A stretch of DNA of 64,000 nucleotides, from assembly GCA_017656305.1 (NCBI GenBank), contig JACDOG010000011.1, positions 1 through 64,000 of the forward strand, written 5' to 3'. Position numbers and translations under genes: made by a program. Positions 6,934 to 32,058 of the stretch are shown in pieces. The stretch is from Thermoanaerobacteraceae bacterium (GTDB lineage Bacteria; Bacillota; JADQBR01). The notes beneath the pieces were generated by a model. That model was not told the DNA's origin. It searched no databases and saw only the letters and a list, made by a program, of their open reading frames with translations. Positions within the stretch are counted from its first letter, which is position 1. Every line of letters begins with the position of its first letter.

Positions 6934-8292
6934 ATGGTAAAGCGAAAGAGAAAATTTGTATGCCAGGAGTGCGGGTATGAGACTGTGCGGTGGCAGGGAA
7001 AATGCATCTGCGGCGCCTGGAATTCCTTGGTGGAAGAGATAGTAATAGATAGTCCTGCCGCCCGTGGCGGAACTGTAAATAACTTGAGAAACAAGCCGCT
7101 ACCTATTAATGAAGTGGCCCATGAAGATTACAGCAGGCTGGTTACGGGTAATGGTGAACTTGACCGGGTTTTGGGCGGCGGATTGGTGCCCGGGTCTTTG
7201 GTGCTGATTTCCGGTGATCCTGGTATCGGCAAATCGACGCTGCTTTTGCAGGTAGCTGACAGTATCAGCCGCCGGTACGGCACCGTTCTCTATATTTCTG
7301 GCGAGGAATCCCAGGAGCAGATAAAGCTGCGGGCGGACCGGTTGCAGGTGACCGGCCACAGGCTCCTGATAGTAACGGAAACTAATGTGGAGGTAATCGA
7401 AAAGTATCTGGAGGAGTACCGGCCGGTTTTTGTCATTATTGATTCAATTCAAACCCTGTATACCAGCAGCATTACCTCTGCGCCGGGAAGTGTTTCCCAG
7501 GTCCGTGAATGTGCCGGATACATACTGAAATTTGCCAAAACTCTTAATGTACCCTGTATTATTTCCGCTCACGTTACCAAGCAGGGGGATATTGCCGGGC
7601 CCCGGTTGTTGGACCATATGGTGGATGTGGTGCTGTATTTGGAAGGGGAAAAAAATTACGGCTTCCGCATGCTACGGTCATTGAAAAACCGTTTTGGCAC
7701 CACCAATACTCTAGGTGTTTACGAAATGGTGGAGCAGGGAATGAGGGAAATTACCAATCCCTCGGAGTACTTGCTGAGCAATCAAAGCAGCGGTGTTTCC
7801 GGAGCGGTTGTTGTGGCCAGTGTGGAAAGCACTCGTCCCATACTGGTAGAACTGCAGGCGCTGGTGGTAGGTAATGAAATGGGTATTCCGCCGCGGCGTA
7901 CGGTTGTCGGTGTCAATCGAGATCGCTTAAGTCTGATAGTTGCCGTGCTGCAGAAACGAGCCGGGGTGATCATCGGCAATCACGATATTTATGTCTCTCT
8001 GCTCGGCGGTGTCGAGATACAGGAAACTTCCATAGATTTGGGCATGGCAGTGGCCCTTTATTCCAGTTTAAGAGACTGCCCGGTGGACGGGAAGACCATT
8101 GTTTTGGGTGAACTGGATCTAGCCGGTAGGGTGAGGCCCATTTACAACATTGAACGGCTGGTTCGGGAGGCGGAAAAGCTGGGGTTTAACAGGTGCATCC
8201 TGCCGCAGTCCAATATGAATAAGCTGCAGGATAGTACTATTGAACTGGTGGGGGTAACTGGATTACGAGAGGCCCTGGACGTTTTGTTTTAA
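6934..8292 (+). CDS. radA: RadA, DNA repair/recombination ATPase
   Basis: Helicase-like ATPase that drives branch migration during homologous recombination. The N-terminal zinc finger is followed by a RecA-like core with Walker A GDPGIGKST, the RadA-specific KNRFG motif (about residue 250), and a Lon-like C-terminal domain (452 aa, normal length). The second zinc knuckle reads GKCICGAWN, a C-x-C, where most RadA proteins have C-x-x-C, so one residue is missing between the cysteines. It has its own ribosome binding site 90 bp after clpC and is followed by a terminator. Confidence 0.95.
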   Translation: MVKRKRKFVCQECGYETVRWQGKCICGAWNSLVEEIVIDSPAARGGTVNNLRNKPLPINEVAHEDYSRLVTGNGELDRVLGGGLVPGSLVLISGDPGIGKSTLLLQVADSISRRYGTVLYISGEESQEQIKLRADRLQVTGHRLLIVTETNVEVIEKYLEEYRPVFVIIDSIQTLYTSSITSAPGSVSQVRECAGYILKFAKTLNVPCIISAHVTKQGDIAGPRLLDHMVDVVLYLEGEKNYGFRMLRSLKNRFGTTNTLGVYEMVEQGMREITNPSEYLLSNQSSGVSGAVVVASVESTRPILVELQALVVGNEMGIPPRRTVVGVNRDRLSLIVAVLQKRAGVIIGNHDIYVSLLGGVEIQETSIDLGMAVALYSSLRDCPVDGKTIVLGELDLAGRVRPIYNIERLVREAEKLGFNRCILPQSNMNKLQDSTIELVGVTGLREALDVLF

Positions 8293-8317
8293 ATACTGAT
8301 TAAAGCATATTTCTCTG

Positions 8318-8377
8318 AAACAGGCATATGTTGTTAAGAGAAACTTTACGTTCTCTTGCCATGCTGCCTGTTTTTTT
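8318..8377 (+). terminator. Terminator after radA
   Basis: Long hairpin with outer stem AAACAGGC (8318-8325) / GCCTGTTT (8366-8373), an inner AGAGAA / TTCTCT stem, and a T-run to 8377. It separates radA from disA. Confidence 0.75.
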
Positions 8378-8457
8378 ATTTAGTATGATTTCGGATAGAG
8401 AATAGGCAAGTTAAAAATAATAAAAGTAAGCAGTAATTAACTTTGGAGGGAATTTTA

Positions 8458-9525
8458 TTGAAAGACACGGACCGACTGCTCAGTGCCCTGAAACTGCTGG
8501 CTCCGGGCACTCCTTTCCGGGAAGCGCTGGATAACGTGCTACGTGCTAAAACAGGCGGCTTAATTATATTCGATGATTCCCCTGAGATAATGGAAATAGC
8601 GGAAGGCGGATTTGACATCGACGCGCCTTTTAGCCCGGCGGCCTTGTACGAGCTGGCCAAAATGGATGGGGCTATCATACTGAGTAAGGACGGGAGCAAG
8701 ATATTAAAGGCCAATGTCCACCTGGTGCCGCAGCCGTCCATTCCTTCCCAGGAAACCGGAATCAGACACCGGGTTGCCGACCGGGTAGCCCGCCAAACGG
8801 GAGCACTGGTGATTGCCATTTCCCAGCGGCGCAATCTCATCACGTTATATAAGGATTCCATAAAGTATATCTTTCGCGATGTGTCCTTTATCCTCACCAA
8901 GGCCAATCAAGCATTGCAGACCTTGGAAAAACACCGGATGGTCATGGAGAAGACACTGGTCAATTTAAGCATTCTGGAGTTTGAAGATATTGTTACCTTG
9001 CACGATGTGTTAAAAGGCATGCAGAAAACGGAAATAGTGCAGCGCATTGTCAGGGAAATTGATATGTATATCGTTCAGTTGGGTTCCGAAGGGCGCCTGA
9101 TTAAAATGCAGTTGGATGAGCTTTCCTCTGGCGTGGCAGAGGAACGCCTGTTTTTAATTAAGGATTATTTAATTGCCCGGGGAGAAAAAACAGCGGAACA
9201 GGTGGCCGGTCTAATTGCGCAGTGTTCCACGGAAGAAGTTAGGGATTTGGTATCGCTGAGCCGGATTTTGGGCTATGGTGGAACTCTCAGCAGTCTTGAT
9301 ATGTCATTATCTCCCAAGGGCTATCGCTTGCTGGCCAAACTGCCGCGTATTCCCATGCCCGTCATTGAAAACCTGGTAGACAAATTTGGGACGCTGCAAA
9401 ATATTTTGGCTGCTGATATTGAACAGCTGGTGGAGGTAGACGGGATTGGTGAAGTGCGTGCGAAAACCATTAAAGAGGGTTTGAAAAAACTGCAGGAGCA
9501 GATCTTACTGGATAAACAAATATGA
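8458..9525 (+). CDS. disA: DisA, diadenylate cyclase and DNA-integrity scanner
   Basis: Makes cyclic di-AMP from two ATP and senses branched DNA; in spore-formers it delays sporulation when DNA is damaged. The DAC domain shows the catalytic MDGAIILSKD and GIRHRVADR motifs; a linker helix region and a C-terminal helix-hairpin-helix (VDGIGEVRAKTI) follow. Start is TTG 8458, seven bases after TTGGAGGG, giving the family start LLSALKLLAPGTPFREAL. About 355 aa, normal. Neighbourhood clpC-radA-disA-carD is typical of Firmicutes. Confidence 0.95.
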   Translation: MKDTDRLLSALKLLAPGTPFREALDNVLRAKTGGLIIFDDSPEIMEIAEGGFDIDAPFSPAALYELAKMDGAIILSKDGSKILKANVHLVPQPSIPSQETGIRHRVADRVARQTGALVIAISQRRNLITLYKDSIKYIFRDVSFILTKANQALQTLEKHRMVMEKTLVNLSILEFEDIVTLHDVLKGMQKTEIVQRIVREIDMYIVQLGSEGRLIKMQLDELSSGVAEERLFLIKDYLIARGEKTAEQVAGLIAQCSTEEVRDLVSLSRILGYGGTLSSLDMSLSPKGYRLLAKLPRIPMPVIENLVDKFGTLQNILAADIEQLVEVDGIGEVRAKTIKEGLKKLQEQILLDKQI

Positions 9526-21941: not shown

Positions 21942-22017
21942 GCCCATATAGCTCAGGAGGTGGAGCGTCGCCTTGGTAAGGCGGAGGTCGCCGGTTCAAG
22001 TCCGGCTATGGGCTCCA
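21942..22017 (+). tRNA. tRNA-Thr (GGT)
   Basis: 76 nt with encoded CCA. Acceptor GCCCATA / TATGGGC, anticodon loop TTGGTAA gives GGT. It is the last host gene seen; the phage integrase begins about 85 bp further on, so its 3' end is a candidate integration target. Confidence 0.97.
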
Positions 22018-22102: not shown

Positions 22103-23284
22103 TTAAGAGCTGTTTTTACTGAGCAGGCTGTCCATTTTATGGGCAGCTTTTTTCTTTATTTTGAGTGTGACATGGGAGTAAATATTGGCTGTAGTTTTAA
22201 TATCGGAGTGTCTTAGAAGCTCTTGAACAACTTTGAGGCTTTCACCCTGTTCTAATAATCTGGTCGCAAAAGTATGACGAAGGCCGTGTAAATTGACTTC
22301 CTTACTCACTCCAGCTTTCTCCCTTAACTTGTAATACTTTCTTTGAAAGTTTCTCGGGTACATGTAGGTTCCGACGTCAGTTCCAAATACCAAGTTTTCG
22401 TTTTTGTACTCATCTCGCCGTAACATGATAATTTCTTTTTGAGTTTTACGATGTTGCTTTAAAGCTTTTAATGCAATTTCAGGAACTGGTACCGGTGCTT
22501 TGGACTTTTCGGTTTTTGGCTCATTTATGACCAATCCTTGGGATTGGGTTCGTGATAAGGTTTTAGTTACTTTAATGTACCCTGTCTTGAAATCAATATC
22601 ATCCCATTCAAGAGCCAGAAGCTCCCCGATCCGCAGGCCGGTCCCAAGTAATGTGAGAAAGGCTGCCTTCCATTTATCGCTTTCCTCATTGATTACCTTT
22701 AAAAACCTATCCATTTCCTCTTCATTCATCGTAGGAGCTTCCTGGTGCTTCACAGAGGGCCGCTCAGTCGCCTTTGAAGGGTTCCATACCAGGAGCCTTT
22801 TTTCAACCGCTTTCTCGAGGCAACTGTGAATTATCTGGTGTATTTTATGGATGGTTGCAGGTGCTTTCCCGGCATCTCTTAGTTTGTTGTAGAGTGCCTG
22901 AATATGGTCGCTATTTAGTTCAGTGAGGGGTATTTCCCCAAGCGCAGGGTAAATATGCAGTCTGGCGTACATATAGTAATTCTCCAGCGTTGATAACCGT
23001 AACTTAGGCTTTTTATAAAGCTCCAGCCAGTCCGCTAGCCATTCACCAAACGTCACGCTTTTGGCAGTTTCCTGGTCTATTCCCAGGTTCATTTGCTCCA
23101 TATACTCCTGCATTTTTTCTTTTACCTCGGCCCGCGTTTTGCCATAAAAACTTTTTCTTTTGGGCTTCCCTGTTTCCGGGTCCTTTCCAATAGTTATTTG
23201 CCCAACCCATTTACCCTTGTGTTTTCCGCTTTTGACCTGATAGATAGTACCTTCACCATTAGCGTTTTTGCGTTTTTTAGGCAT
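22103..23284 (-). CDS. int: Tyrosine-type phage integrase
   Basis: Site-specific recombinase that inserts and, with an excisionase, removes the prophage. N-terminal arm-binding domain (about 10-55), SAM-like core-binding domain (about 60-165), then the catalytic domain with Arg in GLRIGELLALEW, HGLRHTFATRL (His-x-x-Arg), the second His in LRHSDIKTT, and the nucleophile Tyr in NIYSHV. About 393 aa. Start ATG 23284 (MPKKRKNANGEG) has AAAGGGGG upstream; an in-frame ATG at 23317 does not. It points toward the tRNA, the usual orientation beside attL. Confidence 0.95.
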   Translation of the reverse strand: MPKKRKNANGEGTIYQVKSGKHKGKWVGQITIGKDPETGKPKRKSFYGKTRAEVKEKMQEYMEQMNLGIDQETAKSVTFGEWLADWLELYKKPKLRLSTLENYYMYARLHIYPALGEIPLTELNSDHIQALYNKLRDAGKAPATIHKIHQIIHSCLEKAVEKRLLVWNPSKATERPSVKHQEAPTMNEEEMDRFLKVINEESDKWKAAFLTLLGTGLRIGELLALEWDDIDFKTGYIKVTKTLSRTQSQGLVINEPKTEKSKAPVPVPEIALKALKQHRKTQKEIIMLRRDEYKNENLVFGTDVGTYMYPRNFQRKYYKLREKAGVSKEVNLHGLRHTFATRLLEQGESLKVVQELLRHSDIKTTANIYSHVTLKIKKKAAHKMDSLLSKNSS

Positions 23285-23387
23285 AAACTGTTCCCCCTTT
23301 TGTTGAAATCCTTGCACAAATTAAAAGGACAGGCAAGGTTGAGTCGGAGCGTAGCGGAGCCATATAGCCGCTGTTGTCCGAAGTTGT

Positions 23388-24161
23388 CTAAAGGATATCA
23401 AGTATTTCCTCTGGGCTGGTCAATACAGAAATTCCGGTTTCTTCACCGATAATGTCTTTTACTCTTGCGAAGTCCGAGTCAAAACTTGCAATATATTGAC
23501 ATCCTAAGTGTTGAGCTAAAAGTATATGCATAATGTCAGCAATACCGAGTTGCAAATATGCATAGACAGAAGGCTCTTCCCATACTTTACTGACTGGTAA
23601 ATGAAAATTAACTATATTAACTTGCAACAAGCCCTGTAATCCATGGACCTCTACAAACGATCTGTTTAACCATGTTTCGGACATCAATATCTCTAATCCA
23701 GTTGATACACCTGGCTTCTTTCCTTCTTGTTCTTTGATTTCTGCTTCCCTCAATTCTAAAGCTTTTTTGAGATAATCGCCGATTTGTTTCTTGCTCTTTT
23801 TCTGGATAAGCATCGTTCCTGATGCTTCAGATGCAATTTGTTTAAATGCCGCTTCTGCCTGCCATTCCATCAATTCTAATAAAGAGAATGGACTCACTAC
23901 CGGTGTAACTTTAACTTTTTCAAAGAGCAGTTTCTTTCTAATCTCAACTACTTTGCTAATTCTTTTTTCCGACCTTAAAATATCTTTGACAACTTGTAAA
24001 TGTGGCAATTCGTTTTTCTTCATCAATTTATCCACTTCTGTCTCTGGCATTTCCATACCCTCAGTCATCCAGTAATCTACAAGAACGGACGTATCAAAGT
24101 AGATCGCTGGCAAAAATCTTTTCTGCAGTTTGCCAGTGCTTGTAAGTATTGTATCTTTCAT
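23388..24161 (-). CDS. PIN-domain protein
   Basis: A 257-aa protein with the PIN fold split across its length: YFDTSVLVDYW near residue 21 (first Asp) and GIADIMHILLAQ plus ASFDSDF near the C-terminus (further acidic residues). A long helical, Lys/Glu-rich insertion lies between them, which makes it larger than VapC-type toxins (about 130 aa). No antitoxin-like partner adjoins it. Likely a ribonuclease; its target and a role in phage exclusion are inference. Good ribosome binding site (GGAGG) before ATG 24161. Confidence 0.75.
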   Translation of the reverse strand: MKDTILTSTGKLQKRFLPAIYFDTSVLVDYWMTEGMEMPETEVDKLMKKNELPHLQVVKDILRSEKRISKVVEIRKKLLFEKVKVTPVVSPFSLLELMEWQAEAAFKQIASEASGTMLIQKKSKKQIGDYLKKALELREAEIKEQEGKKPGVSTGLEILMSETWLNRSFVEVHGLQGLLQVNIVNFHLPVSKVWEEPSVYAYLQLGIADIMHILLAQHLGCQYIASFDSDFARVKDIIGEETGISVLTSPEEILDIL

Positions 24162-24401
24162 AAATTAGCCTCCGAGACAATTTCGCCTAACTTAGGGATT
24201 TCCTCTTTTTCTTACGCCGCCTTTCATAATATCCCTCCCAAGTGACCTGTCATAAACACTCACCTCTCAAAAACATATGTTCGGTTAAAAATTAAAAGAA
24301 AAAGCTATTAATTGAAATCTGTAGCAACTAAATGGCTTAATTTGCGCGTTGATAAAAAAGGGTAACTATTTTACAATGATAATAAGTTACGAGGAGGGTT
24401 T

Positions 24402-25127
24402 ATGATGAAAAGAATTGTTATGCTTTTTTTATGGATAGTGTCCTTCGTATTAATCCTATTTTACGTTGTATATAAACCCGAAGAGTTCCTAATACAAGGT
24501 CCGCTAATCCTCGGCTGGGTATTATTTACCTTACAGTTTACTTACAATAATTCCGAAAAATTTTATCTGCTTATTCAAAGAATAGTTTTTAATATTAAAA
24601 ACCCCGACTGTATTTGGAACATGGAAGTTCAAATGACAGGTGATTTTGATAGAGAGATATTTAAAAAAATTGATGAATTGTTTTATTCTAAGGACCAGAA
24701 TTTAAAAATTTACGATATTAGTAATACGAGAAAGATTTATAAGTTATCTACAATAAGCTTTGAAATATCGGTTAAGGAAGATGAGGGTACTATAAATATC
24801 TCCGTTCAAGATTTAGAAGTTAGCTATCGGCGAGCCAAAAACATAATTGATAAAGAACTGGCTAAAATATTTGAAAATCTACAACTGAGTTTAAAACCTG
24901 ACAATAACAGTTTTGGTTTGCATGTTGAATTTAAAGGGTTTAATCCATACTTTGGTTTCTTTATCCGTAGATTAAATGCTAGTACCATAAGTAGTTTTAA
25001 TATTACGATTAAAATCGAAGAAGATTGCGTTGCTGTATATAAAAACAGTATAGATATTAGTACAAAAAGCTTCCAAAGTTTAAATAACTTATCAAAAGAT
25101 TATTTGGCATTTTCCCCATTAGATTGA
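24402..25127 (+). CDS. Membrane protein of unknown function, convergent with the next gene
   Basis: 241 aa. Two hydrophobic spans at about 4-24 and 32-48 are followed by a soluble domain of mixed sheet/helix with many Asn, Lys and Ile. I do not recognise the family. It is AT-rich compared with phage structural genes. ATG 24402 (or 24405) follows GAGGAGGG. Its last 28 bp overlap the 3' end of the minus-strand gene ending at 25100, so the two form a convergent pair in the cargo area. The 240 bp before it (24162-24401) show no gene. Confidence 0.7.
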   Translation: MMKRIVMLFLWIVSFVLILFYVVYKPEEFLIQGPLILGWVLFTLQFTYNNSEKFYLLIQRIVFNIKNPDCIWNMEVQMTGDFDREIFKKIDELFYSKDQNLKIYDISNTRKIYKLSTISFEISVKEDEGTINISVQDLEVSYRRAKNIIDKELAKIFENLQLSLKPDNNSFGLHVEFKGFNPYFGFFIRRLNASTISSFNITIKIEEDCVAVYKNSIDISTKSFQSLNNLSKDYLAFSPLD

Positions 25128-25795
25128 CCGATATTTATTAAAGTCTCGTAAACATCAAGTACAAGGTCAAGTTCATCCTCGATCATATCAAAGGTGTCAT
25201 AAAGAACAATGGAACTTTTCTTGCTTATCGCTATCGTATGTTCTTCCTTAGTTAATTTCGAGACATATTGTAATTGTAGCGAAGAAACTTCTCCTTCTTC
25301 TGCCGCTATCTTAAATTCTTCACTTTTGTTAACATTTGGCCCGAACAACCCAGCAGTTTTTAAATAAGTTCGCTTCAAATCAGCTATCCAGGCACCCGAG
25401 ACCTCTGTTATTAAAGGGTACATTTTAGCAAAGTCTATTGGAACAGGTTGACAGTCAAAAGCCTTGCTGCTATTAAGTATACGAATATAATCACGTGCAA
25501 TATCTGTTTTAGTTTGAATTAGAAGGATAGATTTGTTTCTGTTGTAGTACATATAAAAATCAACTGGTTCAAAATAGTATGTAAAGAATTGATTGAAAAC
25601 TTTACCATACTTCTTGTGTTTATAATCATGGTGACAGGTATATTGGTCGTATCCTTGATAAAAATCTTTGCGGGTTAATTTATAGTTAATTACAGCTTCC
25701 CCTTCATGTTCAAATAAAGCTTCTTGGATAGGCATCTGATAAAACTCATCATCATAAAACTTTTCTACGGCACATATCAAATATGATTTTGGCAT
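25100..25795 (-). CDS. Soluble protein of unknown function, convergent partner
   Basis: 231 aa, no signal peptide or membrane span, rich in Tyr, Phe and Asp/Glu (FYDDEFYQMP near the start; IEDELDLVLDVYETL near the end). No family recognised. It overlaps the membrane-protein gene by 28 bp at the 3' ends and its start lies inside an ImmA remnant. Position suggests cargo such as phage exclusion; nothing in the sequence proves that. Confidence 0.65.
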   Translation of the reverse strand: MPKSYLICAVEKFYDDEFYQMPIQEALFEHEGEAVINYKLTRKDFYQGYDQYTCHHDYKHKKYGKVFNQFFTYYFEPVDFYMYYNRNKSILLIQTKTDIARDYIRILNSSKAFDCQPVPIDFAKMYPLITEVSGAWIADLKRTYLKTAGLFGPNVNKSEEFKIAAEEGEVSSLQLQYVSKLTKEEHTIAISKKSSIVLYDTFDMIEDELDLVLDVYETLINIGQSNGENAK

Positions 25796-26010
25796 ATCTA
25801 CCTATTCCCCCTTCTGAAAAAGCATCGGTCCAAATCCTCACCAACTCCACCGACAGTTCCATCCTCGCTGCAAACTTCTCAATATCCTCCCCGTAAGTAA
25901 ACGCTTCCTTCCCGATCAGTAACTCGGCTGCAAAATAGTTGGCTCGGTGCTCCTCCTTGCCTTGGTCAAAGAATGTGTTCTCTGTATTTTTTTCGGAGCA
26001 ATAATAGGGA
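25752..26010 (-). pseudogene. ImmA/IrrE-type peptidase remnant (C-terminal part)
   Basis: The minus strand encodes TFFDQGKEEHRANYFAAELL and, later, EDIEKFAARMELSVELVRIW, closely parallel to the intact ImmA ending at 27847 (TFFVNGKYERQAHQFAAELL and ESIEDYAKRKNVPVELVRVW). The N-terminal half with the HExxH zinc site is missing, so this copy is dead. The frame stops at 25752-25754, inside the 5' end of the neighbouring gene. The 5' boundary is approximate. Confidence 0.75.
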
Positions 26011-26046
26011 TTTTAAGAGGAGCAGAACCTGTATTACCCAACTTAA

Positions 26047-26736
26047 TCAAGTACAATCTGCTCCATAAATAAACTCATAAAAGTCTATTTCCTCATCATC
26101 AGAAATAAGCCCCCGTTCCTTACATTCTTTGTACCAATTAACGATTGCTTTTTTCATCCGTTCTAATGAAGTTTTCCATACAGGTCTTAAATGCTTAATC
26201 CATAGTTCTATTTCTTCAGGACTAATAAATCTACTTTTTTGACACAATATTTTTGCAGTTTGAATAATTATTTTTGCAAGGCTTTCATCAATAACATTGT
26301 TTGGAATTGACCAGTGAGCATTTCCTAAGCAATCTGTATAAAAAGCAATTTGTTTAACTTGATCAAGAATAAACGGATGTTCGGAGCTGTTGTCAAAGAG
26401 AGGCCGTAGATCATCCAACGTTCGAGCTCCTTGCAAAACAAGACTTGGCAGGAGCCAAGCGACATTCTTTTTGGTGTGTGTCCGGTATTCCCGCCAATAC
26501 TGATTGATTTCTTCCAAAGTTTTGGCCACAGCTAACCCTCTCAAAATCGAAGCTTTTCCTGCTTCCTCAATAGCTAATATTGCAAGGGCTGTAGCAGATG
26601 GGAGTCTTCCGGACTCTAACAAGATAATTGCATCTTCTAGCAGACGAATTGAATTTTCATTAGCCGCATTTATACCTGCTGCAATTTGCTCTGAGTTTAG
26701 TGGTCCTTTGTATTGTTTAAGCTTTCTCTTACTCAT
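26047..26736 (-). CDS. AbiV-family abortive-infection-like protein
   Basis: 229 aa, all-helical. The segment ATALAILAIEEAGKASILRG near residue 48 is the hallmark of the AbiV family, known in lactococci to stop phage maturation. Lengths agree (about 200-230 aa). ATG 26736 has GGAGG six bases upstream. It sits between two ImmA remnants in the cargo block of the prophage. Role in superinfection exclusion is inferred from the family. Confidence 0.8.
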   Translation of the reverse strand: MSKRKLKQYKGPLNSEQIAAGINAANENSIRLLEDAIILLESGRLPSATALAILAIEEAGKASILRGLAVAKTLEEINQYWREYRTHTKKNVAWLLPSLVLQGARTLDDLRPLFDNSSEHPFILDQVKQIAFYTDCLGNAHWSIPNNVIDESLAKIIIQTAKILCQKSRFISPEEIELWIKHLRPVWKTSLERMKKAIVNWYKECKERGLISDDEEIDFYEFIYGADCT

Positions 26737-26852
26737 AATTACCTCCGGATTTCACACAAAATAGTATTTTAACAAGACCCAAATTCCTACTAAATAATAA
26801 CCTCTATGCCCATGCAAATCCTGCCCCGGCACTAGTAACCATAACCATAAGG

Positions 26853-27244
26853 CTATAAAGAATAAGCAACTGAGACCTCCCTTACAAACAAATCTGCTTG
26901 TCTCTCTACTGTTGTTCTCTTCATGTTTAACACTACCACATACCCCACACTGGGCATGTGTTCAATTACATGGCACAATTCATGCAAAAAGACTTTCTCG
27001 CGGGCTTCCAGACTTAAAGATTGGTTAATGACGATATGAAACCTTCTTTGCGTGACCGGTAGGCAAAAGCGGCAACATCGCCGTTTAAATCTGCATAATG
27101 GCAGATGATGCCATACGCCCGCATTACTTCTATCGGGCTCAGGGTGCGGTCCTTAAGTTTTCTGATGATCAGATATTTTTCTGATAATCTGCTCTTTAAC
27201 AGTGGACTACGCTGTCTCAGGCGGAACCATTGATGGAAACTCAT
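26853..27244 (-). pseudogene. Frameshifted ImmA/IrrE-type peptidase
   Basis: An ImmA-like gene broken in the middle. The first frame gives YGIICHYADLNGDVAAFAY and runs out as KEGFISSLTNL; one base away the frame continues HIVINQSLSLEAREKVFLHE with the zinc site HELCH and then ERQADLFVREVSVAYSL to a TAG at 26853. A single-base deletion near 27021 explains the break. The C-terminal domain is also short, so even without the frameshift the protein would be truncated. The 5' end overlaps the DUF4145 gene. Confidence 0.75.
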
Positions 27245-27818
27245 ATATAAACCGGAGTAACATCTCCAAGAATGTAATAAGTGCGATTGCGTCTTCCTTT
27301 TCCATCAAGGCAATTTCATGGGTAGCTTCGTTACCGCGTTTACGTATATAGTCGACCCATACTTTGCCGTTTGGAGGGACGTAGCCTTTGTCCGCCAAAT
27401 ACTCGACGTATTCAACGAAACGCTTGCCCTCTTCTGCTCCCTCCGTAACTGCAATGTTCATGAGCATCTTGCGGCAAAGAAGCACTGCGCCTGTATAGGC
27501 ACCTGAAGCAGCACTCACACGTGCTTCGTTATAAAGATCGGAAAGTTCGTCAGGAAGATTCGACACAGGGTTTCCTGGAGCAGTTCCCGGGTAGATCTCG
27601 CCTTTGGGAGTAAAAAAGGTTGGCCCCTTACAACTTGGACAAATTCGAATATAGGCTATGGGGCTTCCAGATCCGTCGGGCTTTGAGCTTGCCCAGTAGC
27701 CCCTGTTTGACGAGACTTTGTCACCACAGTAACCGCATACATATGTTTTCGCTGGAATTTGTTTGGTGTTATACCATGCACCATCGCCAAGTGAGACACT
27801 ACTTCTTGATAGAGCCAC
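27207..27818 (-). CDS. DUF4145-domain protein with zinc ribbon
   Basis: About 203 aa. The N-terminal half has a zinc-ribbon pair (CGYCGD and CPSCKG); the C-terminal half matches DUF4145 (ASGAYTGAVLLCRKML, then GNEATHEIALM). DUF4145 domains frequently occur with restriction and other defence proteins, but a stand-alone function is not known to me. GTG 27818 has GGAGGTG at proper spacing; an upstream GTG at 27827 lies inside that site. Part of the cargo block. Confidence 0.8.
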   Translation of the reverse strand: MALSRSSVSLGDGAWYNTKQIPAKTYVCGYCGDKVSSNRGYWASSKPDGSGSPIAYIRICPSCKGPTFFTPKGEIYPGTAPGNPVSNLPDELSDLYNEARVSAASGAYTGAVLLCRKMLMNIAVTEGAEEGKRFVEYVEYLADKGYVPPNGKVWVDYIRKRGNEATHEIALMEKEDAIALITFLEMLLRFIYEFPSMVPPETA

Positions 27819-27846
27819 ACAGCACACCTCCGAGTTTGACCTGTAA

Positions 27847-28272
27847 TCAAGTATCTTTCCACACCCTCACCAGCTCCACCGGCACATTTTTCCGCTTCGC
27901 ATAATCTTCAATGCTTTCCCCGTAGGCAGGCTTGTCCGCCGCCAGAAGCAGTTCCGCCGCAAACTGATGGGCCTGGCGCTCATATTTGCCGTTGACAAAA
28001 AACGTTTCCTTGATCATGAAAAAGTATCCCATCCCCTGGGGGTGTAGCTGGTTGTGGCCAATTTCATGGGCTACTATGACCCGCTGGAACTGCTCCGGAA
28101 GCCGGCTGTTGAGGCCTATTATCTTGTGGCCGAAGAGGCTTATCGCCAGGCCTTTTATCTTTTTAAACGGAAAGCGAATGATGGTAATGCCAAGGTGATC
28201 TGCAAGTTCAAAAGGGTCACGGGTGCCGTATTGCTCTACCAGGTTATTGACGGCAGTTTTGATGAAACTCAT
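27847..28272 (-). CDS. immA: ImmA/IrrE-family metallopeptidase
   Basis: Zinc peptidase that cleaves the phage repressor upon induction in ICEBs1-type switches. Zinc motif HEIGHNQLH near residue 72, and the C-terminal region with FAAELLLAAD and VELVRVWKDT. About 141 aa from ATG 28272; an in-frame ATG 69 bp upstream lacks a ribosome binding site. It is separated from the repressor by the fic gene, unlike the usual direct pairing. It is the only intact one of three ImmA copies here. Confidence 0.85.
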   Translation of the reverse strand: MSFIKTAVNNLVEQYGTRDPFELADHLGITIIRFPFKKIKGLAISLFGHKIIGLNSRLPEQFQRVIVAHEIGHNQLHPQGMGYFFMIKETFFVNGKYERQAHQFAAELLLAADKPAYGESIEDYAKRKNVPVELVRVWKDT

Positions 28273-28332
28273 ACTGCTTACACCACCACTGCTCCTTTGT
28301 CTAAGGTTGTCTATTTTTGTCGAAACTCCATA

Positions 28333-28370
28333 ATAAAGCAAAAACTACTACCGGTTGTTGGTAGTAGTTT
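28333..28370 (-). terminator. Terminator after fic
   Basis: Perfect 11-bp inverted repeat AAACTACTACC / GGTAGTAGTTT (28342-28370) with a 7-nt loop; on the minus strand it is followed by a T-rich stretch. It separates fic from immA. Confidence 0.75.
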
Positions 28371-28480
28371 AGTTTGTTGTTGCTTGGCTTATATGCGGTT
28401 GCAGCTTCTTGAGTAAAAGGTCTGCTTGCTATTCAAATTTCCATGCTTGTGGTTATTCATTCCTCATGTTATGAAAGCGG

Positions 28481-29638
28481 CTATGTAGTTAGCTCCGTAC
28501 CAGCCTGAAGCAGGTCAATATATGCGGAATATCTAAACTTTCTGTTTCTCTGAACTTTAGGGTTGTAATGTAGAATTCCGAGATCACAAAATTGTGACAC
28601 AAGAGCATTCGCAGTTGGATAAGTTACTTCTAACATATCAGCAACCTTATTTATTGTAACAACGGGGTGCTCAAAGAGATTTTCTAGTAATTTAAGCCCA
28701 TTTGACGGATTTTTGATACGGGAATTGATTAATTTAGAATGTTCTTCTTTCATTTTAAGAATCTTTTTAGCGGTTTCTGTAGCCTCAATAGAGACTTGTG
28801 CAATACCTTTCAGGAAAAACTTGATCCAATTTTCCCAATCACCTTTCAACCTAATATCCATCAATCTGTCGTAATACTCTGTCCGGTTCATTTTGAAGAA
28901 ATGACTTAAATATAACAAAGGTTTTCTTAATATTTTTTGTTGGCATAACCAAAAAGTAATAAGAAGCCGCCCTATTCTTCCATTGCCATCAAGAAATGGA
29001 TGTATAGTTTCAAACTGGGCATGAATGAATCCTATTTTAATTAATGGGGGAATATCTTCGTATTCATGAAAAAACAATTCTAAGTCAGCCATAGCTTTCA
29101 TGGCTTCGTGGTGTGGTGGAGGAACAAATGTTGCTGAAGATAAAGTACATCCTGCGGGCCCTATCCAATTTTGGCTTTTTCGAAATTCGCCTGGTGACCT
29201 TTCTCCACCGCGAACATCCTGTAAAAGGATCTTATGTATTTCCTTAATAAGTCTTAAAGAGAGTGGTAATTCTTCTAACCTGGTCAAACCATAATTCATT
29301 GCTTTAATGTAGTTTACAATTTCTTCGATACTCTTCTCTTTTTCAACATCAACTGAATCATCAGCATCTAGCACATCGATCAAAGACGCTTGAGTACCTT
29401 CAATTTGAGAGCTAAGAACAGCTTCTTTCTTAACATACATTGCAACGAACAAGTCGGGGTTAGGTAGAATCTGAGTAATTCCGTCCAATCGTCCCAAACA
29501 TCTGTCCGCTGTAGAAAGCAGTAAGAGCATGTCATTATCCATCTTTAGCGGAGGATCTGGAGGAAGCGGCTTAGGAATAAAAGCTCTATAACCTCCTGGT
29601 TGATTCATGAATACCCCAGCTCTATTCGATAATGCCAT
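28481..29638 (-). CDS. Fic-family protein (AMP-transferase fold) with C-terminal winged helix
   Basis: Fic enzymes transfer AMP or related groups to target proteins. The full active-site motif HPFLDGNGRIGRLL lies near residue 213. The N-terminal domain shows SSQIEGTQASLIDVL, an inhibitory-helix-like [S/T]xxxE[G/N]-type segment (SQIEGT). The C-terminus (about 320-385) is a winged helix (VADMLEVTYPTANALVSQF), so it could bind DNA. 385 aa. ATG 29638 follows GGGGAG. A 14-bp palindrome lies 40 bp upstream. Target unknown; role in phage exclusion is a guess. Confidence 0.88.
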   Translation of the reverse strand: MALSNRAGVFMNQPGGYRAFIPKPLPPDPPLKMDNDMLLLLSTADRCLGRLDGITQILPNPDLFVAMYVKKEAVLSSQIEGTQASLIDVLDADDSVDVEKEKSIEEIVNYIKAMNYGLTRLEELPLSLRLIKEIHKILLQDVRGGERSPGEFRKSQNWIGPAGCTLSSATFVPPPHHEAMKAMADLELFFHEYEDIPPLIKIGFIHAQFETIHPFLDGNGRIGRLLITFWLCQQKILRKPLLYLSHFFKMNRTEYYDRLMDIRLKGDWENWIKFFLKGIAQVSIEATETAKKILKMKEEHSKLINSRIKNPSNGLKLLENLFEHPVVTINKVADMLEVTYPTANALVSQFCDLGILHYNPKVQRNRKFRYSAYIDLLQAGTELTT

Positions 29639-29855: not shown

Positions 29856-30206
29856 TCATTTCCTTTTTTTCTTCCGTATCGTTTTCCAAGCCACTTTTAG
29901 GAACTCTATGATGTCCTGCTTGTCTTCTTCGTCTAAGGGCTCGCCGTTGAATTTGATGTTGGAGTGTTTGAGGAGTTCTTCTAGTTCGATGTCGGAGGGA
30001 GGATCGTCGGGGAGGTCATCTAAAAAGTAGCCAGGAGATACTTTTAACGCCTCAGCTATACTTCTTAATGTATCAAGCGAAGGATTACTGCGGCCTTTTT
30101 CAATATCATTCAAATAAGAAACCGATATCTGAGCTTTTTTAGCTAACTCAGTCATGGTCATGTTTTGTTGTTCTCGCAGTTTAGTAATCTTTTTCCCTAA
30201 AGACAT
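29856..30206 (-). CDS. Phage CI-like repressor (XRE family)
   Basis: 116 aa. N-terminal helix-turn-helix (KITKLREQQNMTMTELAKKA, then YLNDIEKGRSNPSLDTL), as in SinR/ImmR-type repressors; the acidic C-terminal tail ends KTIRKKKRK. No autoprotease domain, which agrees with control through an ImmA peptidase. ATG 30206 is preceded by GGACGAGG. It is divergent from the Cro-like gene across the operator cluster and probably maintains lysogeny. Confidence 0.88.
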   Translation of the reverse strand: MSLGKKITKLREQQNMTMTELAKKAQISVSYLNDIEKGRSNPSLDTLRSIAEALKVSPGYFLDDLPDDPPSDIELEELLKHSNIKFNGEPLDEEDKQDIIEFLKVAWKTIRKKKRK

Positions 30207-30444: not shown

Positions 30445-30705
30445 ATGCTAGGTAAACGCATTCGAGAAGCAAGGGAAAGAAAAGGCTTGAAACAAGTGGA
30501 CTTAGCAAAACTAACTGGTCTAGCAAACTCAACCATCTGTGACATTGAAAAGGATAGGATAAAACCTTCTATCGATAGTTTAGCTAAGATCGCAGAAGCC
30601 ATGGAACTTCCCATCAGTTATTTTATACCTTCTCGTTACGAAAATAACGTAAGAAGGTTCCCTAATGACCATACCGCGAGGTTAGACGCCACTGGGACTG
30701 AGTAA
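30445..30705 (+). CDS. Cro-like XRE-family regulator
   Basis: 86 aa, almost only a helix-turn-helix domain (KRIREARERKGLKQVDLAKL, then STICDIEKDRIKPSIDSL) with a short charged tail. Divergent from the repressor and behind the operator-covered promoter, so a Cro role is likely. ATG 30445 follows GGAGGTG. The 3' part of the gene contains a fourth operator copy. Confidence 0.82.
   Translation: MLGKRIREARERKGLKQVDLAKLTGLANSTICDIEKDRIKPSIDSLAKIAEAMELPISYFIPSRYENNVRRFPNDHTARLDATGTE
30635..30653. promoter_or_regulatory. Fourth operator copy inside the Cro-like gene
   Basis: GTTACGAA-AAT-AACGTAAG matches the switch operators in 15 or more of 19 positions. About 240 bp from the main array, it could allow repressor looping. 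Confidence 0.65.
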
Positions 30706-30820
30706 TCCCAAACACCAGGGCGGGGTAGAAAGGGATTGACCAACGAAGAACTGGCCGCGTTAATATTCTTCCCCGGGAGCGGGGGATTAAGCCAGGAAAG
30801 TGGAGGGAGGTGAGGGGAGA

Positions 30821-31045
30821 ATGGAAGAGCTACTAAAAGATATTTTGGCGGAGCTAAAAGCAATAAGGGAACATTTTACTTCTAACTCCGCTAATACTAG
30901 CGTTGTCTTAAATATTAAAACTGTATCACTTTCAACCGAAGAGCTGGTTGAAAAAGTAAGTAGGGAATTGGTTAAAAACCTTCGCATAACGAAGCCGATT
31001 TGGTCTGAAGGTAAAGATGTGGCTGGTAGTGGCTTAGAACTTTAA
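30821..31045 (+). CDS. Small protein of unknown function
   Basis: 74 aa from ATG 30821 after GGAGGTGAGG. An N-terminal amphipathic helix (EELLKDILAELKAIREHF) suggests oligomerisation; the rest has no recognisable domain. Its 3' end overlaps the Ntn-hydrolase gene by 4 bp in convergent orientation, a possible functional pairing. The 115 bp before it hold a GC-rich hairpin but no clear gene. Confidence 0.6.
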   Translation: MEELLKDILAELKAIREHFTSNSANTSVVLNIKTVSLSTEELVEKVSRELVKNLRITKPIWSEGKDVAGSGLEL

Positions 31046-31677
31046 ATTTTAGCGACTTTGTGATGAAAGTTGCCAACAAGAAGGGCTGAGCAAGTAGAAC
31101 CTACCGTGTTTGAGCATTGAGAAACCATTTTTATAGCATTCGCAAATAGGGATGATAGATTATTTTCATGAGGATTTGGAATATGTGCTAATTTTGAGGT
31201 TATCAAACTTTTTACAATATTCTCTTCCATTGACGGGCCACGAACAATCCAAGTAAGGTTTTCTGAACGATTAAAGTTATTATCACTTTCAAAGTTATAT
31301 AAAAAAGCCTTTTTGGATTTGGGATCATAGCCGCCAAGCAAAAATACCATAACGTCATACGCGTTAGGATTGTACTTTTTAAATTGTTTATGCAAAAAGC
31401 GAAAATGTTCTTGGCAACATTCAATAACTTCTTCTACCGAATAATCAGGAGTATCTTGAGGATCGAAAATAGCATTCCTAATAGCCATTACAGCGGCATC
31501 TCCCAGTGTCCCAAGACCAGCCGTAGCAATGGCGATATTTGGCCGAACCAAACGCAATTTCTCTGTACTCGTATTTTTAGCTGAAAGAGTATTTCCTTGG
31601 TTATCAATTTTAACCCTTAATGTATCTGAAACAAATAATACACGGTCATCAAATCGATACCCTATAATTATAGTCAA
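31042..31677 (-). CDS. Proteasome-like Ntn-hydrolase
   Basis: 211 aa. Starting at TTG 31677, six bases after AAAGGTG, the protein begins M-T-I-I-I-G-Y; removing Met exposes Thr1, as in HslV. Asp17 lies in FVSDTLRV at the same distance as in proteasome beta subunits. A catalytic Lys candidate sits in STEKLRLV after a loop six residues longer than usual, and ATAGLGTLGDA matches the glycine turn after it. An in-frame ATG lies 48 bp further upstream, but that product would need cleavage to expose Thr. No ATPase partner is nearby. Activity and substrate are unknown. Confidence 0.72.
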   Translation of the reverse strand: MTIIIGYRFDDRVLFVSDTLRVKIDNQGNTLSAKNTSTEKLRLVRPNIAIATAGLGTLGDAAVMAIRNAIFDPQDTPDYSVEEVIECCQEHFRFLHKQFKKYNPNAYDVMVFLLGGYDPKSKKAFLYNFESDNNFNRSENLTWIVRGPSMEENIVKSLITSKLAHIPNPHENNLSSLFANAIKMVSQCSNTVGSTCSALLVGNFHHKVAKI

Positions 31678-31827
31678 CTTTATCACCTTTCTTTTAAAGT
31701 TTAAAACAGTTATGACATCGGACATTTCATTTTATGCTTTCAACTCCTGTGAGTAATGGTTTAGTAAGTCTAGACACCTACCATTTCGACACAAAGGAGG
31801 AAAAACCTGCTAAAAGGGGGTTACACC

Positions 31828-32058
31828 ATGGCACAAAAAACAGAAAACCTCCGCTATGAAGACCTGCCAGATTTCCTGACTGTCAAGGAACTAAAAGAGT
31901 ATCTTAGGGTAGGCTGGAACAAAGCGTATCAGATTGCCAACGAGATACCGCATTATAGGTCTGGGAACCGAAGATTGTTCCCGAAGGAGAAGGTCAAAGA
32001 ATGGGCTTTAAAGCAGAGTAGAACCAAGATTGAAAAAAGACTTTGGGCCGTAAAGTAA
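31828..32058 (+). CDS. Excisionase-type helix-turn-helix protein
   Basis: 76 aa. DLPDFLTVKELKEYLRVGWN and the wing RSGNRRLFPKEKVKEWAL match the MerR-like DNA-binding fold of Xis/excisionase-family proteins. ATG 31828 after AAAGGGGG. Far from int, so an early-gene regulator is as likely as a true excisionase. Confidence 0.75.
   Translation: MAQKTENLRYEDLPDFLTVKELKEYLRVGWNKAYQIANEIPHYRSGNRRLFPKEKVKEWALKQSRTKIEKRLWAVK

Follow-up and report, generated by a model that had tools for sequence, protein, structure and literature searches.

In HslV and the proteasome beta subunits, Thr1, Asp17 and Lys33 are the catalytic residues. A 2021 survey by Fuchs, Alva and Lupas reported 22 new proteasome-like groups (PMC8665760). 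Phage carriage was recorded for PPH, AAH and some other tabulated groups, and the Firmicute clusters FC1-5 (group II) were tabulated without phages. Apart from proteasome beta and HslV, the groups have no propeptide; neither functions nor AAA+ partners were found for the new groups, and the authors regard the clues to what the 22 groups do as limited (PMC8665760). A BPH homologue has been named in a Citromicrobium phage (PMC8953757).

The gene reported here lies in a prophage with contractile-tail genes that adjoins a tRNA-Thr, within a window of 64,000 nucleotides (the whole stretch of DNA that was analysed). Profile matches and a predicted fold support its assignment to the proteasome-like Ntn-hydrolases. 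The gene, its predicted catalytic codons and the surrounding prophage features are given below.

22103..23317, minus strand: prophage tyrosine integrase (PF00589), beside tRNA-Thr at 21942-22017
26047..29638, minus strand: accessory cassette of AbiV, PD-T7-4/DUF4145, IrrE-type M78 and SoFic (by homology), between integrase and repressor
29856..30206, minus strand: repressor-like HTH gene (RstR-like HTH, below the curated cut-off)
30445..30705, plus strand: cro-like HTH gene, start of the rightward early region (by homology and position)
30800..31045, plus strand: small ORF converging on the CDS with a 4-bp overlap (no family match)
31042..31677, minus strand: CDS of the proteasome-like Thr-Ntn-hydrolase homologue, 211 aa, TTG start (PF00227, four-relative profile, Foldseek)
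31516..31518, minus strand: Gly codon, residue 54, Gly47 oxyanion-hole equivalent (kept in 4/5 sequences, not P0006; on beta2 Gly47)
31558..31560, minus strand: Lys codon, residue 40, Lys33 equivalent (invariant in 5/5; on beta2 Lys33 and the HslV equivalent)
31624..31626, minus strand: Asp codon, residue 18, Asp17 equivalent (invariant in 5/5; on beta2 Asp17)
31672..31674, minus strand: Thr codon, residue 2, mature Thr1 and predicted nucleophile (invariant in 5/5; on yeast beta2 Thr1)
31684..31692, minus strand: Shine-Dalgarno-like AGAAAGGTG, 6 bases ahead of the TTG (from sequence)
31828..32058, plus strand: excisionase-like HTH gene, divergent from the CDS (HTH_17; TIGR01764 over cut-off)

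The first-pass annotation had proposed a phage-borne, proteasome-like Ntn-hydrolase with a threonine right after the start codon. Its reading of the gene is confirmed by the sequence: the minus-strand ORF at 31042-31677 with its TTG at 31677, an AAAGGTG six bases ahead of this codon and the 4-bp overlap with the convergent ORF at 30800-31045. The Met-Thr-Ile-Ile-Ile-Gly N-terminus and the segments FVSDTLRV, EKLRL and ATAGLGTLG are likewise present, and MTIIIGYRFDDRVLFVSDTLRV is found in the gene alongside the latter two. As it had also stated, the gene is carried by a prophage, runs against the early genes and has no adjoining ATPase gene. It sits just beyond the repressor/cro pair, and no gene for a proteasome alpha or another beta partner is nearby. 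At 35.8%, its GC content is below that of the early and late phage region (46.9%), and no consensus promoter was found upstream of it on the minus strand.

The window protein belongs to PF00227 (Proteasome), the sole Pfam family that it matches, with 28.1 bits against a curated cut-off of 22.4 (E 1.8e-6). Searches of PHROGs, NCBIfam and PADLOC with the same protein returned nothing convincing, and no PADLOC model matched. A profile built from the four relatives described below, without the window protein, recovers the window frame at E 1.4e-27 as its sole match among 719 window frames. An AlphaFold2 model computed from three sequences (pLDDT 56.2, pTM 0.56) shows strands and helices in the order of a proteasome subunit, with both H1 (residues 57-70) and H2 (81-102) present; a model from two sequences was poorer (pLDDT 41.8). 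The three-sequence model is of moderate confidence, with residues 22-37 and most of 143-211 below pLDDT 50 and the C-terminal third weakest. Foldseek matched it to 20S proteasome beta subunits (best E 1.7e-9, TM about 0.6), and the best 50 PDB matches were proteasome chains only. A BFVD search with the model returned phage proteins, one of them named proteasome beta. Thus, the proposed identity agrees both with the Pfam match and with a predicted fold which, by Foldseek on a model of pLDDT 56, is of the proteasome/Ntn type rather than an unrelated one.

In the window gene alone the position of the start codon is a choice. The longest ORF in this frame begins with an ATG at 31725, 16 codons upstream of the TTG, and would give 227 aa; an in-frame GTG also lies upstream. 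Among the five family members, such alternative upstream starts occur in the window gene only. In 4/4 relatives the codon preceding the threonine is the sole possible start between the upstream stop and this threonine, and a purine-rich, ribosome-site-like stretch lies upstream of each. The TTG at 31677 is thus supported, because the threonine is forced to residue 2 in all of the relatives; it directly follows the start codon rather than being buried within the chain, as the first-pass annotation had proposed for the window gene. That the threonine is residue 2 in these relatives is a sequence observation, and its exposure at the mature N-terminus is predicted.

The catalytic residues proposed earlier also find their counterparts. 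When the four-sequence profile is aligned with yeast proteasome beta2 (E 2e-4), Thr2, Asp18, Lys40 and Gly54 fall on Thr1, Asp17, Lys33 and Gly47. The relatives are only 22-30% identical to the window protein, yet the first three of these residues are invariant in all five sequences, and Gly54 is kept in all except P0006. Inspection of the alignment gave no evident counterparts of the proteasome Asp166 and Ser169 for the window protein. Between two family members, P0004 and P0005, dN is 0.167 and dS 0.778, which indicates that the family is under purifying selection.

The homologue survey that had been suggested yielded four relatives, two in other Firmicute prophages and two on Bacillales plasmids. 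A tblastn search with the window protein gave one relative, encoded on a plasmid of Planococcus maritimus (30.7% across 148 residues, E 5e-10); this protein as query found the one on a Peribacillus simplex plasmid. The Peribacillus protein in turn led to a copy with 74% identity on an IMG/VR prophage contig (G398). An N-terminal DNA pattern (MT...G...V...D), designed on the window gene and these three relatives and expected 0.00 times in shuffled window sequence, recovers all four and matches 14 IMG/VR stretches, among which only G398 and a second prophage contig (G399) encode such a protein. G399 thereby provides the fifth family member. PF00227 is above cut-off in the window protein and three relatives; the G399 member (L062 17549-18256), with a TTG directly before its threonine, is below Pfam detection and matches the family profile.

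Other searches suggest that this proteasome-like subgroup on Firmicute mobile elements is rare. No close relatives turned up in 84,980 species genomes when peptide patterns were taken from the window protein or from three family members; this kind of search demands exact short matches and thus misses distant members. With the window protein, A1 or P0002 as query, IMG/VR gave nothing; tblastn against the INPHARED phages, for which the queries were the window protein, P0002, P0004 and P0006, was likewise without a match. Among 398 sampled genomes of the phylum, the window genome alone carries a family member. The sole extra profile match in that sample (G170, L036 9651-10580) is a 309-residue homologue downstream of an ATPase-like gene; it resembles the longer, insertion-bearing groups and does not belong to this family.

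The neighbourhoods of the relatives differ. The G398 prophage has AimR, repressor, head and tail genes, and its copy lies near the repressor, between a phage-defence retron of the RT-Toprim type, about 2.6 kb away, and the AimR-type regulator. These two flanking genes are at L034 1707-3413 (the RT-Toprim retron, of type I-C) and 8031-9233 (AimR, an arbitrium receptor). Two accessory genes also flank this copy (L034 3746-4501 and 6771-7439); they are candidate cargo and have no Pfam or PADLOC match over threshold. In G399 the copy is co-oriented with the early genes and stands where their region ends, flanked by replication genes and the terminase. An McrC gene lies about 2.6 kb from the Peribacillus copy on its plasmid, and no defence gene adjoins the Planococcus and G399 copies.

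Within the window, the region from 22103 to 29638 holds the integrase, a PIN-domain protein, two unfamiliar low-GC genes, AbiV, PD-T7-4/DUF4145, an M78 peptidase and SoFic, the last a homologue with a PADLOC E of 7e-124. All but one of these genes are on the minus strand. A gene of 29% GC at 24402-25127, on the strand opposite to its neighbours, may be separate cargo; it has no Pfam match over cut-off and no PHROG family. The host genome also encodes HslV and HslU of its own, in adjacent genes elsewhere.

We then propose a model in which the window gene is a prophage accessory gene that probably encodes a stand-alone hydrolase with a threonine nucleophile, activated by methionine aminopeptidase rather than from a propeptide and probably expressed in the lysogen. 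Since threonine is a permitted second residue for methionine aminopeptidase, the host enzyme would remove the initiator methionine. This would expose Thr1 as nucleophile and general base, with neither propeptide nor autolysis. The hydrolase would then work without an ATPase of its own, as a small oligomer or a monomer; its substrate would be a specific protein or an unfolded one, on which it might hydrolyse an amide bond or, in the manner of connectase, carry out transpeptidation; a ligase or transpeptidase activity of this kind is proposed purely by analogy. Early transcription that starts near 30445 and proceeds rightward would cross the gene in antisense; the hydrolase may therefore be produced in the lysogen and silenced once the prophage is induced. 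In G399 the gene is found where the early region ends and not by a repressor, and lysogenic expression may therefore not be general. Most likely the gene would benefit the fitness of the prophage or of the host; our leading, if tentative, guess is that it interferes with other phages.

It is tempting to refine this model into a component of phage defence or superinfection exclusion, with a protein of the phage or of the host cut by the hydrolase when the cell is infected. AbiV, PD-T7-4 and SoFic homologues share the prophage segment, and the G398 and Peribacillus copies each lie about 2.6 kb from a defence gene, the RT-Toprim retron and McrC, respectively. However, such neighbours are commonplace in accessory regions, the Planococcus and G399 copies have no adjoining defence gene, there is no conserved partner gene and no PADLOC model match for the protein, and no link of such proteins to defence was found in the literature. 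We therefore consider this refinement possible and somewhat doubtful. The broader proposal of a mobile, single-gene Thr-Ntn-hydrolase family on Firmicute prophages and plasmids that acts in anti-phage defence, as an immune effector of the proteasome type, seems to us rather unlikely. A role in the lytic cycle, with host or virion proteins modified during takeover or capsid processing, would suit the G399 copy, which shares the direction of the early genes and has replication genes and the terminase on its two sides. It is hard to reconcile with the antisense orientation of the window gene and with the two plasmid copies, for which no phage head or tail genes are listed in the annotated stretches examined, and is accordingly judged unlikely.

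The protein might also be a catalytically inactive proteasome-like fold that serves in binding or as a scaffold, as the proteasome alpha subunits do. In favour of this, alpha chains are matched by the profile along with beta chains, the window protein shows no conservation of the Asp166/Ser169 region, and P0006 has no Gly47 equivalent. Against this, Thr2, Asp18 and Lys40 have been kept throughout the five sequences despite their divergence, and a scaffold would not need a threonine exactly at residue 2, which makes an inactive protein quite improbable. A duplicated or captured host HslV that partners the host HslU is brought to mind by the adjacent HslU and HslV genes of the host. This origin is highly improbable: the profile gives E 0.79 for HslV and 2e-4 for proteasome beta2, it matches no member of the HslV comparison set, and it matched no HslV in the 398 genomes. 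Among these readings, the stand-alone hydrolase expressed from the prophage is the one that we favour.

Phage proteasome homologues were already described in 2021 (PMC8665760), and for this reason the window gene is less novel than the first-pass annotation implied. The kind of protein is known; what we may add is a new and rare member that resides on mobile elements of Firmicutes and has a possible, though unproven, role in defence. The finding extends the proteasome-like enzymes to a rare mobile-element family of Firmicutes in which the threonine nucleophile is encoded right behind the start codon, and a prophage copy near defence homologues offers a concrete handle on what stand-alone proteasome homologues do.

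With the yeast 20S subunits beta2 and beta4 the protein shares the fold and the aligned catalytic residues, at about 20% identity or less among the Foldseek rows listed, and it differs from them in having no propeptide. HslV is likewise a bacterial threonine protease of the same fold, which the host carries together with HslU, but it is far more distant in profile searches and no HslU lies beside the prophage gene. Although the catalytic residues align in hhalign, the probability is low (8%). An HslV query against phage records returned only HslV-like sequence, in unannotated records or in Salmonella records annotated HslVU. With no HslV-level similarity and no hslU neighbour, identity with HslV was ruled out.

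PPH and AAH of group I are similar in that proteasome-like genes are carried by tailed phages and hosts. However, PPH has about 140 residues and no helix H2, whereas the window protein has 211 aa and both helices in its model (H57-70 and H81-102), and identity with PPH was ruled out on these grounds. Group I is also close to HslV and beta, whereas the window family barely matches HslV. Connectase resembles the proposed enzyme in being proteasome-like and acting with neither a ring nor an ATPase; it differs in being archaeal and in lacking H1 and H2, both of which the window model has.

A close likeness in description is to FC1-FC5, which share Firmicute carriers, a proteasome-like fold without a propeptide, the Thr1/Asp17/Lys33/Gly47 set and the absence of an AAA+ partner, and in which, as in the window family, both alpha and beta chains are resembled. 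The four-relative profile gives E 2e-4 for beta2, 6.7e-4 for alpha and 0.79 for HslV; this similarity to alpha and beta, and hardly to HslV, fits group II, as judged by profile similarity and not by the clustering of PMC8665760. Compared by description only, the two differ in their carriers: FC1-FC5 are tabulated without phages, whereas the window family is found on prophages and plasmids.
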